This document shows positions 2,039 through 4,510 of a stretch of DNA of 41,021 bases, in pieces. The notes under the pieces are model-generated. The model ran no database searches and was not told the origin of the DNA. It was given only the letters and a program-made list of their open reading frames with translations. Origin of the DNA: a virus; the IMG/VR virus record IMGVR_UViG_3300045996_001508, positions 1-41,021 of that record; one strand, given 5' to 3'. Both the position numbers and the translations under genes were made by a program. Each line of letters starts with the position of its first letter. Positions within the stretch are counted from its first letter, which is position 1.

Positions 2039-2137
2039 TTATCCGCCCAAGAAGCCTGAGCAGAACGCCAGCGAGAAGGCGAGCAAGACGCAAATGCCGC
2101 CGATGATCAGGCGCTTCTTGCGGTGGTTAGGCGACAA
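2039..2137 (-). CDS. Single-TM small membrane protein (holin or lysis accessory candidate)
   Basis: A 32-residue protein with a basic N-terminus (SPNHRKKR) followed by a hydrophobic segment of about 20 residues (LIIGGICVLLAFSLAFCSGF). The start is inferred to be TTG at 2137, because GAGGAG lies seven bases upstream and the TTG overlaps the end of the endolysin gene (TTGTCGCCTAA), a normal coupled arrangement. An upstream in-frame ATG exists but would overlap the endolysin by over 100 bases and add an Arg/Pro-rich shadow sequence. Position straight after an endolysin suggests a holin-like or lysis-accessory role, but the family is not recognised. Confidence 0.5.
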   Translation of the reverse strand: MSPNHRKKRLIIGGICVLLAFSLAFCSGFLGG

Positions 2138-2648
2138 GCGCGCTCTCCTCGCCGAGTACGGTCCCCATGGCCAGGGCGTAGTTTTCCGGCCAGTCCTGGG
2201 GGCGGGGCTTACCCGGGTTCCAGTTGCGCATGTAGCAAGCCCAGGCCGACTTCTCATCGCCTATGGAAGGCAGGCGCTTCAGATCGGACCACAGAAGTGC
2301 CGCGCCCATCGCGCAGCCTAGAATGTCGTTGTGAGCCATGGCGTCATGCACGCCATGCGGCGTGGGGTTGTAGCCCAGCTCCTGAACCCTGTAGGGCAGC
2401 CACAGGCAGCGCTCGTGGGCCAGGACCAGCCCCACGGTGCCCCGCTCAAACTGCCACCAGGACCGCCCCAGGTGCGGCAGCACCTTGCCGTTCTCGTCGA
2501 TCTGCAGGCGGTCACGGAGGCCGCTCTCCTGCATGGCGATGGCGATCAAGAGGAGCCGGCGCCCTGGAGTGTTGAAGACGGGTCCGAGCCACTCCAGGGT
2601 CGGCCTCACGATCAGCTTGTCGAGCAGCGCAGGGGTCACTTCTTCCAT
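2127..2648 (-). CDS. Lysozyme-like endolysin (transglycosylase fold)
   Basis: A 173-residue protein that resembles phage lysozyme/lytic-transglycosylase-fold proteins. It has AIAMQESGL with a candidate catalytic Glu near residue 43, then GRSWWQFERG, typical of the 'GxxQF' segment after the catalytic helix, and a final NYALAMG. No signal peptide or membrane segment is seen, so release to the wall would need a holin or other membrane lesion. It overlaps the phospholipase-like gene by 13 bases. A GTG at 2639 forming GTGA with the upstream stop is an alternative start that would drop three residues. It lies in a caspase, PLA2-like, endolysin, small-TM string. Peptidoglycan cleavage is inferred from family resemblance. 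Confidence 0.7.
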   Translation of the reverse strand: MEEVTPALLDKLIVRPTLEWLGPVFNTPGRRLLLIAIAMQESGLRDRLQIDENGKVLPHLGRSWWQFERGTVGLVLAHERCLWLPYRVQELGYNPTPHGVHDAMAHNDILGCAMGAALLWSDLKRLPSIGDEKSAWACYMRNWNPGKPRPQDWPENYALAMGTVLGEESALVA

Positions 2649-3034
2649 CCCGAGATTGCTGGGCGGCCGAACTTGCGAACAAAGAACCAGTAGATCGCGG
2701 CCGTCCCGGTCCAGAACCAGCCGAAGCGATCCTCCTCCTCACCGATGGAGATCATGCAGGCGCGCACGTCATCATCAGCCTTCTTCCTCTCCCCCTCGGT
2801 CTCGGAGAACCAATAGTCGAGGTCGTGCATTGCACAGCATGGCTTGGCGATATCGAGCCCGAAGGTGCAGCCATCAGATCGCCTGATCGGGTATGGCGGC
2901 AGATGCGGCTTCAACAGATGGCGTCGGTCGGCCTCGGCCTGGAACCACCTGAGGAACGCGGCCTTGTAAGCTTCATCCGACAGACGGTCACGGCTCCGGG
3001 GGAGCGAGGCCTTGAAGTCGCGATAGGCGTTCAT
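2636..3034 (-). CDS. Phospholipase A2-like protein with C-terminal membrane segment
   Basis: A 132-residue protein. Residues 54-75 read DGCTFG...KPCCAMHDLDYW, matching the PLA2 catalytic signature CCxxHDxxY (His70-Asp71, Tyr74). This is followed by an Asp-rich helix with a Cys (ADDDVRAC, Cys93) like the family's second conserved helix. A hydrophobic aromatic stretch at about 104-119 (FGWFWTGTAAIYWFFV) could anchor it in the membrane. The start is the ATG at 3034, overlapping the caspase TGA as ATGA; the longer open frame to 3148 is shadow. PLA2 enzymes hydrolyse the sn-2 acyl chain of glycerophospholipids; activity here is inferred from the motif. Neighbouring endolysin suggests a part in envelope breakdown. 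Confidence 0.65.
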   Translation of the reverse strand: MNAYRDFKASLPRSRDRLSDEAYKAAFLRWFQAEADRRHLLKPHLPPYPIRRSDGCTFGLDIAKPCCAMHDLDYWFSETEGERKKADDDVRACMISIGEEEDRFGWFWTGTAAIYWFFVRKFGRPAISGWKK

Positions 3035-3771
3035 GCTTTGAACGGCACCTCGTTGATAAAGCCGTAGCTCAGCTTGCCCGAGAAGTAGAGGCCCGGCCGC
3101 TGATCCCAAGGCATACGGCGGCGAACCTCGGCCTCCAGGGTGCGCCATCCGGCCTTCGGCGGCAGGCTCTCCAGCTGGCTCAGCATGGTGACGGTGAACC
3201 GGCCGCCCTCGGCCAGGTCGCCGCTGAGCTGATCGTCGGTGCAGCCGCTGAAGAGGATGCAGGACGCCTTGACGATGTCGATCTCGGGCTCGCGCATCGG
3301 GGCTACCGTCTGCGGCTTCCGGCTCCCGCGAGGCGCCCTAGGCGCCCTGGTGACCGTTCCCGAGTGGCAGCTGTCCGAGACCACAATTACCTTGACGCCG
3401 GCCTTGAACTTAGACATGAGCGTCTGGACCTTATCGTCGATCATCTCGCCGTCGAAGAGGCACCATGTCTCGTCTCGCTTGTCGTCCTCATCTCCTGACG
3501 TGTCGGGCACCTGCCCGCCATGTCCTGAGTATGAGAGCAGGAAGCGGTCGCCTCTCACGAGCTGACGGGCGATCTCATCGATATAGCTGACCAGGGCCTC
3601 ATTGGTCGCCTGTTCATCGGTCAGTACCTCGCGCACGGTCCAGCCACGCGCTGACGCCATCTTCGACATCGCCATCGCGTCTGGAATGCAACCCTCAAGC
3701 TCGCCATCCCAGCCGTTGTATGCGGCTCTGGAGACGTGATTCAGGCCGAGGTGAAGAGAGATCGAGGTCAT
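3031..3771 (-). CDS. Caspase-fold (C14) cysteine protease
   Basis: A 246-residue peptidase of the caspase/metacaspase clan. The His motif is FLLSYSGHGGQ (His84) and the Cys motif is VIVVSDSCHSGT (Cys135), each after a hydrophobic beta strand as in p20 domains. The N-terminus GLNHV...LEGCIPDA is also family-typical (strand 1, then the 'GCxxDA' helix). There is an acidic loop DTSGDEDDKRDE between His and Cys. No signal peptide or extra domain is seen, so it is probably cytoplasmic. It is the first gene of a coupled string leading to PLA2-like protein and endolysin, upstream of which are tRNAs on the other strand. Substrate is unknown; roles in lysis timing, virion processing or interference with host defence are all possible. 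Confidence 0.88.
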   Translation of the reverse strand: MTSISLHLGLNHVSRAAYNGWDGELEGCIPDAMAMSKMASARGWTVREVLTDEQATNEALVSYIDEIARQLVRGDRFLLSYSGHGGQVPDTSGDEDDKRDETWCLFDGEMIDDKVQTLMSKFKAGVKVIVVSDSCHSGTVTRAPRAPRGSRKPQTVAPMREPEIDIVKASCILFSGCTDDQLSGDLAEGGRFTVTMLSQLESLPPKAGWRTLEAEVRRRMPWDQRPGLYFSGKLSYGFINEVPFKA

Positions 3772-3811: not shown

Positions 3812-3900
3812 GGAAGAGTGGCAGAGTGGCAATGCGTCGGCTTGCTAAGCCGTAGCCGGGGTTCGTCTCCGCGAGAGTTCGATCCTCTCCTCTTCCGCCA
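3812..3900 (+). tRNA. tRNA-Ser (GCU)
   Basis: Type II tRNA. Acceptor GGAAGAG/CTCTTCC, D-arm GCA/TGC, anticodon loop TTGCTAA (GCT), long variable arm CGGGG-TTCGT-CTCCG, T-arm GAGAG-TTCGATC-CTCTC, discriminator G at 3897 and encoded CCA at 3898-3900. The first anticodon-stem pair is a T-T mismatch. Confidence 0.95.
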
Positions 3901-3901
3901 C

Positions 3902-3990
3902 GGGCGGTCTAACATTGGTGTGTGTAGCTGTCTCGAAAACAGTAGGGGGTGAACAGCTCCTTGGGGGTTCGAATCCCTCACCGTCCGCCA
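3902..3990 (+). tRNA. tRNA-Ser (CGA)
   Basis: Type II tRNA one base after the previous tRNA. Acceptor GGGCGGT/ACCGTCC with one G-U pair, anticodon stem GCTGT/ACAGT with loop CTCGAAA (CGA), long variable arm, T-arm GGGGG-TTCGAAT-CCCTC, discriminator G at 3987, encoded CCA at 3988-3990. The D-stem is short (ACA/TGT). Confidence 0.92.
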
Positions 3991-3999
3991 ACCTTTTAT

Positions 4000-4074
4000 G
4001 GTGACGTTAGTGTAGTAGCCGCACATCAGGCTGTGAACCTGATAGAATGGGGGCAGAACCCGTACGTCACCCCA
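4000..4074 (+). tRNA. tRNA-His (GUG), with degenerate T-loop
   Basis: Acceptor GTGACGT (4001-4007) pairs with ACGTCAC (4064-4070); G-1 at 4000 faces C73 at 4071, the tRNA-His identity pair; CCA at 4072-4074. Anticodon stem TCAGG/CCTGA with loop CTGTGAA gives GTG. Odd: the T-loop reads GGCAGAA instead of TTCRANN between ATGGG and CCCGT, and the D-loop TAGTAGCCG lacks the usual GG, so the standard elbow contacts cannot form as drawn. Confidence 0.82.
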
Positions 4075-4075
4075 T

Positions 4076-4158
4076 GCGTAGGCAGCCCATTGGCGAGGGC
4101 AGCAGACTGTAAATCTGTGGCTTCGGCTGTGGTAGTTCGACTCTGCCCCTACGCACCA
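4076..4158 (+). tRNA. tRNA-Tyr (GUA)
   Basis: Acceptor GCGTAGG/CCTACGC, D-arm GCCC/GGGC, anticodon loop CTGTAAA (GTA), variable arm GGC-TTCG-GCT, T-arm GGTAG-TTCGACT-CTGCC, discriminator A at 4155 and CCA at 4156-4158. It starts one base after the CCA of tRNA-His; its 3' end overlaps the stop of the opposing 68-residue gene. Confidence 0.95.
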
Positions 4159-4355
4159 TTTCCACCACTGGCATAGTTATAGACCCGGCAATCGGTGGCA
4201 ATCACCTTGGCCCTAGGTTCATTCTTCTCGACCCACTGACGAGCCAGAATGTTCTGCGAGATGGCACAGACAGCAACCGGGCCGTTGTGCTTCTCGTTGA
4301 TCACCTGCAAGCCGCCGTCGACCATGATGACCAGGAAGAAGATAAATCCCGTCAT
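4149..4355 (-). CDS. Small exported or membrane protein, hypothetical
   Basis: A 68-residue protein with a hydrophobic N-terminus (MTGFIFFLVIMVDGG) that could be a signal anchor, then a soluble tail with two Cys (AVCAIS, TDCRVYNY). Its ATG overlaps the TGA of the DUF3309-like gene as ATGA, so the two are translated together. Its stop overlaps the 3' end of tRNA-Tyr on the other strand. The family is not recognised. It sits between the spike module and the tRNA cluster; role unknown. Confidence 0.6.
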   Translation of the reverse strand: MTGFIFFLVIMVDGGLQVINEKHNGPVAVCAISQNILARQWVEKNEPRAKVIATDCRVYNYASGGNGA

Positions 4356-4510
4356 ATCTTCCCCATGAGCACCAGGATCAGGATAATGATCAGAAGCAGA
4401 CCTAGGCCGCCGACCGGGCCATAGCCCCAGCTCCTCGAATGCCCCCAGGTCGGCAGAGCGCCGATCAGGAACAGGATGAGGAAGATCAGGAGAATTGTTC
4501 CGAGCGACAT
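4352..4510 (-). CDS. DUF3309-like small membrane protein
   Basis: A 52-residue protein with two hydrophobic segments: an N-terminal one (LGTILLIFLILFLIGALP) and a C-terminal one (GLGLLLIIILILVLMGKI). They are separated by the conserved-looking turn TWGHSRSWGYGPVGG, the hallmark of DUF3309 peptides found in many Rhizobiales and other proteobacteria. GGAG stands upstream of the ATG at 4510. Function of the family is unknown. In this phage it lies downstream of the tail spikes and upstream of the tRNAs and caspase gene, so a membrane or lysis-associated job is possible but not shown. It may have been picked up from the host. Confidence 0.8.
   Translation of the reverse strand: MSLGTILLIFLILFLIGALPTWGHSRSWGYGPVGGLGLLLIIILILVLMGKI

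Follow-up and report, generated by a model that had tools for sequence, protein, structure and literature searches.

The window analysed here is an entire virus record of 41,021 bases (IMGVR_UViG_3300045996_001508). Its gene content is that of a long-tailed phage, with genes for terminase gpA, portal, head protease, major head protein, tape measure and a lambda-J-like fibre on the minus strand. The closest portal relative in the phage collection comes from a Pararheinheimera phage (52%), and the host is probably Gram-negative. Past the last tail-spike-like gene (6720-4564), the order is a DUF3309 protein, a 68-aa ORF, tRNA genes on the opposite strand, a caspase, a phospholipase A2 (PLA2) and an endolysin (Table 1). 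The initial annotation had described the caspase and PLA2 genes as overlapping by ATGA and leading directly into the endolysin, and this layout is confirmed: the caspase gene ends and the PLA2 gene begins in a shared ATGA at 3034-3031, and the last 13 nt of the PLA2 gene overlap the beginning of the endolysin gene. An AAAGG-like ribosome site can be read 5' of the caspase ATG. The tRNA genes at 3812-4158 oppose the late-gene strand and separate two blocks of late genes; a fourth tRNA (Glu) lies at 1910-1985.

Table 1. Features at and around the caspase-phospholipase locus of the window.
Feature	Position	Strand	Length	Remarks
Caspase-fold protease (metacaspase, GSU0716-type)	3031..3771	-	246 aa	H84/C135 dyad
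Phospholipase A2 (group XIII/XIV-like)	2636..3034	-	132 aa	H70/D71, D87, four invariant Cys
Endolysin	2127..2648	-	173 aa	phrog_3108
Possible single-TM ORF	2039..2137	-	32 aa	TTG start; MSPNHRKKRLIIGGICVLLAFSLAFCSGFLGG; 3' of endolysin; candidate small lysis protein
DUF3309 two-TM protein	4352..4510	-	52 aa	PF11752, E 8e-22; candidate holin
68-aa ORF	4149..4355	-	68 aa	ATGA-coupled to DUF3309 gene
Three tRNA genes (Ser-GCT, Ser-CGA, Tyr-GTA)	3812..4158	+		between caspase operon and upstream late genes

The caspase ORF is intact and reaches the caspase domain family PF00656 with 73.9 bits against a cut-off of 21.4 (E 2e-20). The proposed catalytic residues, H84 in YSGHGGQ and C135 in SDSCHSG, align with those of metacaspases of known structure, namely 3bij and the yeast enzyme. 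The closest solved relative is 3bij, the Geobacter protein GSU0716 (phmmer, 5.5e-57), followed by yeast, plant and trypanosome metacaspases. Residues C28, D31, S82 and D133 match what we take, from the trypanosome MCA2 structure, to be the basic S1 pocket, and the C28/D31 region could be aligned with yeast metacaspase. Because of this match to the pocket, the enzyme should prefer Arg or Lys. Its activity may also depend on Ca2+. A quickly built tree of 111 caspases placed the window protein on a long branch at the base of the GSU0716 clade (support 99), with the phage copies L120, L009 and L106 as neighbours. The annotated phage collection held a single caspase relative, and single-sequence searches of viral contigs with the caspase, PLA2 and endolysin proteins each gave no matches.

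The middle gene required more than one line of evidence. Searched alone, its product matched only phrog_6098, whose function label is "unknown", and reached no Pfam family. We gathered about 26 relatives across viral contigs with the DNA pattern CC..HD.DY; numerous proteins of an unrelated 255-aa family that it also caught were discarded. Among 20 aligned phage members, C56, C66, C67, H70, D71, Y74, D87 and C93 are invariant, and D73 and G123 are also kept. The CCAMHD signature noted by the initial annotation is present in the window protein as C66-C67-A-M-H70-D71, and a profile of the family matched four PDB entries, all of them PLA2s (E 3e-5 to 1e-4; best 3.2e-5). The spacing of six between D87 and C93 equals what we take to be the D99-C105 spacing of classical secreted PLA2; two disulfides, C56-C67 and C66-C93, are therefore expected.

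Structure prediction from the single sequence was poor (AlphaFold, pLDDT 48) and was replaced by a run with the family alignment (pLDDT 84, pTM 0.79). The best five Foldseek matches of this model in the PDB were group XIII/XIV PLA2s (E 0.01 to 1.4), the first four with probability 1.00 and E 0.01-0.03, and its matches among viral structures include phage proteins named phospholipase A2. H70 and D71 sit in the predicted PLA2 fold, as an active-site assignment requires. VIA Z scores were 7.4-9.3 against PLA2s and 6.2 for the best unrelated match, a lead that is modest given the helical nature of the protein; the identification therefore depends on motif, profile and fold jointly. Taken together, these data identify the product as a predicted phospholipase A2 of the secreted type with a full catalytic signature. 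Two other readings of its ends were considered and rejected. The C-terminus is the normal last PLA2 helix by family alignment and fold comparison and not a transmembrane helix, and the N-terminal part aligns with PLA2 structures (fold over residues 1-125) and is not a pro-domain. Since the N-terminal helices belong to the normal PLA2 fold, the protein has no obvious pro-domain to cleave. No signal peptides were seen in the caspase, PLA2 or endolysin proteins of the window.

The third gene of the series matches phrog_3108 (E 4e-30). Its product has relatives in 105 phage records, several annotated as lysozyme or endolysin, including those of phages AH2 and Mano, and some of these relatives occur within holin-lysozyme-spanin cassettes. 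Pfam and PHROG matches identified no holin with confidence in the window, the DUF3309 two-TM protein and the 32-aa TM ORF (which lacks an informative PHROG match) being the candidates; no spanin pair was recognised adjoining the endolysin.

The same pair was sought across phage genomes and recurs in a second phage (IMGVR_UViG_3300045996_001284, 57,928 bases) as caspase-ATGA-PLA2, the PLA2 relative being L219. The upstream caspase has its catalytic residues in SGHG and CDACHSAT and matches PF00656 (E 4e-19). Identity to the window proteins is 34% for the caspase and 48% for the PLA2. On the 3' side of the PLA2 gene lie an HNH endonuclease gene and then a phage lysozyme (PF00959, phrog_7 endolysin) that is not homologous to the window endolysin. 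The linked caspase and PLA2 at 34% and 48% identity, beside unrelated endolysins, indicate that the pair stayed together despite extensive divergence and a change of lysin. No match was obtained between the head and packaging genes of the two phages, although they have a tail module in common (J 43%, most others 25-42%); the pair thus retained its position at the end of the tail genes while the lysin changed. The 68-aa ORF of the window has a weak relative downstream of the second-phage endolysin (tblastn 28%, E 0.001). A search for phrog_3108, which gave no positive-control match, did not detect it in the second phage or among six further caspase phages. Directly upstream of the second-phage caspase is a weak match to a matrixin-like zinc protease (HEVGHAMGLLH; L249:4479-5279), which would place two proteases and a lipase consecutively. 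The exact caspase-PLA2 pair was seen in these two phages only, and with a shared tail module in both it may go back to one evolutionary event.

We also examined caspases in other viruses. Alignment-guided scans yielded about 35 other caspase-bearing virus records, and 37 records in total were counted. A phospholipase gene adjoins the caspase gene, or lies one small ORF away, in five of the 37 (the window, L219, the L011/L012 lineage, L098 and L103). The L011/L012 phospholipase belongs to PF08398 (27.9 bits, cut-off 23.9); on the podovirus-like contig L012 (5884-8117), a 425-aa caspase with a repeat-rich C-terminus is followed by one small ORF and then this parvovirus-type PLA2. On L098 (2700-4815) and L103 (4854-6798), a lipoprotein-like patatin phospholipase lies a few bases upstream of the caspase; with 49% identity between the caspases and 50% between the patatins, these represent one inherited pair. 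No other patatins were found in the 36 records searched. Judged by sequence, these are three independent caspase-phospholipase pairings that draw on three unrelated lipase families (sPLA2-type, PF08398/VP1u-type and patatin). For the majority of viral caspases no phospholipase adjoins the gene, and in many cases no lysis gene can be recognised nearby.

In 10 of the 37 records the caspase has a lysis gene no more than two genes away, with evidence of varying strength: an endolysin in the window, a lysozyme in L219 (with the HNH and PLA2 genes between), NlpC/P60 plus peptidoglycan-binding domains in L104, a weak NlpC/P60-like match in L106, an endolysin amidase in L117, M15 proteins in L128 and L009, and holins in L129, L101 and, weakly, L014. 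These counts are lower bounds, as a whole-record search with PF00959 missed a lysozyme that was found by protein scan. For five endolysin families with 19 hits, five hits lay within 2 kb of a caspase where 1.2 were expected by length (P 0.005), an optimistic value given that the families were chosen after some neighbours had been viewed. The relatives show the pair linked and near lysis genes, in agreement with the association first suggested for the window. Some caspase neighbourhoods have a different look. On L129 (5458-7548), the caspase directly follows an M23-like lysin and a holin (PF05105) and precedes a recombinase-like gene, an arrangement that resembles prophage cargo, and a lipoprotein-like Exo_endo_phos protein (L113:4455-5324) and a weak SNase-like protein (L110:5546-5953) lie near GSU0716-type phage caspases.

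PLA2 relatives were also found apart from caspases. L181 and L192 come after M15-type endolysins (for L192 the endolysin match is weak), and others (L203, L195 and those of Mannheimia phages) come after tail-fibre genes, so the family is often located at the tail-lysis boundary. Two members, L187 and L176, resemble lipoproteins, and the region around L176 also encodes a SleB-type hydrolase and a small TM protein. In P2-like and Mu-like Mannheimia phages (L005:2950-3192 and L006:2944-3186), the phrog_6098 PLA2-like gene is annotated as hypothetical and stands right after the tail fibre.

The caspase-PLA2 pair beside unrelated lysins in two distant phages, together with the few other phages in which a caspase adjoins a phospholipase of a different family, suggests a lysis-time module not described before. 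The usual account of phage lysis involves holin, endolysin and spanin. On balance, we favour the view that the three overlapping genes form such a module of a tailed phage, in which, to go by sequence and structural models, the PLA2 would attack host membranes and an Arg/Lys-type metacaspase would act alongside. All three proteins would be made late and, without signal peptides, in the cytosol. There, low calcium and reducing conditions could keep the PLA2 inactive, as it should need Ca2+ and two disulfides formed from its four conserved cysteines. Once the inner membrane is opened, the PLA2 would become active and cut phospholipids of the inner or outer membrane, and this lipid hydrolysis might substitute for a spanin. 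In the same step, the metacaspase would most likely cut envelope proteins that resist disruption, or alternatively trim the lipase or lysin. A broader proposal is more tentative and, in our estimation, somewhat less probable than its converse: that phages have repeatedly assembled a membrane-killing module of caspase and phospholipase (sPLA2-type, VP1u-type or patatin) into or beside their lysis functions. The module would be a viral counterpart of the death systems in which hosts combine a caspase with a membrane effector, and its caspase would control lysis or bring it to completion.

Several other explanations deserve weight. The caspase could activate the lipase by cleaving a PLA2 or endolysin zymogen after Arg or Lys, such that lysis waits for a protease signal, much as trypsin activates pancreatic proPLA2. 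The ATGA coupling in both phages, the basic residues R15, R37, R38 and K42 that both PLA2s conserve in their N-terminal helices, and the retention of C28, D31, S82 and D133 from the presumed Arg/Lys pocket are all consistent with this idea. Yet those helices belong to the normal fold and leave no extra pro-domain, and other phages pair the caspase with unrelated lipases or with none. Activation by the caspase is thus possible but not favoured by comparison of the modelled structure, and we regard it as rather unlikely. If the caspase instead cleaved host immune proteins, the PLA2 would be a separate lysis gene adjacent to it by chance. Phage caspases are indeed sporadic accessory genes at many positions, but the late-gene location after the tail genes, the persistence of the pair (34-48% identity) across a replacement of the endolysin, and the clustering of lysis genes near caspases make counter-defence improbable. 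The initial annotation had also likened the pair to abortive-infection effectors. This likeness proved weak: a generic PADLOC "caspase" model was the sole PADLOC match in the part of the window scanned, which also weighs against the counter-defence reading.

Two remaining explanations would remove the pair from lysis altogether. The end of a tail operon is a common site for cargo, and nuclease- or phosphatase-like proteins neighbour some phage caspases (the weak SNase match of L110 and the Exo_endo_phos protein of L113), as would suit enzymes that, once released, target competitors or a eukaryote preying on the host. We consider this quite improbable, as signal peptides were not seen in the window proteins and the PLA2 gene overlaps the endolysin gene; general inspection of the window also noted no integrase. 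That overlap, together with the nearby endolysin in the second phage, also makes it very unlikely that the two enzymes travel inside the virion or on its tail and work during entry, as does the parvovirus VP1u PLA2, despite the adjacent tail-spike genes, the phrog_6098 relatives right after tail-fibre genes and the location of the PF08398 gene of L012 near a head-tail connector gene.

If the favoured lysis-time reading is true, a caspase and a phospholipase at the lysis position would bring the cleavage of proteins and lipids into the last stage of lysis, and might explain how the outer membrane is opened by phages that lack recognisable spanins. Caspase-linked membrane death would then not be confined to hosts but would serve phages too. 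A PLA2 function is also suggested for phrog_6098, now labelled unknown.

Each component has known counterparts. The stand-alone bacterial metacaspase of the GSU0716 type (3bij, Peptidase_C14) belongs to the same family as the window caspase, with the same dyad, similar length and about 46% identity over the alignment. Unlike the window caspase, 80 bacterial relatives had no PLA2-motif gene nearby in simple regex scans, which also found no convincing patatin-motif gene. The window PLA2 has the catalytic His-Asp pair, the second Asp and the fold in common with group XIII/XIV secreted PLA2s (1faz, 8k1w, 7ygk, 4aup), whereas the phage protein lacks a signal peptide and its CC motif is phage-specific. 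In bacterial immunity, gasdermin operons with caspase-like proteases constitute caspase and membrane-effector systems that, as here, place a caspase-type protease beside a membrane-damaging protein. In contrast, the window genes are late phage genes that overlap an endolysin gene, and no gasdermin or sensor gene was noted. In the literature searched, no paper describing a caspase at a phage lysis locus came to light, although this absence is not proof. DUF1353 proteins are common in prophages, and one of them, TtaP, is an experimentally proven PLA2 distantly related to group XIV (PMC11525133). The TtaP islet also encodes a muramidase with prophage relatives, and deletion of TtaP gave no envelope phenotype (PMC11525133). 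TtaP is likewise a small PLA2 with prophage relatives, but it resides in a bacterial islet and not in a phage lysis region, and has no caspase partner. For phage WO, a patatin-based lytic cassette has been proposed (PMC9203015), which likewise assigns a phospholipase to lysis; this remains a proposal, and the patatin is not sPLA2-type and is accompanied by neither an endolysin nor a caspase. Phage phospholipases in lysis have thus been proposed before, and what is new at the present locus is a conserved combination of known enzyme families.
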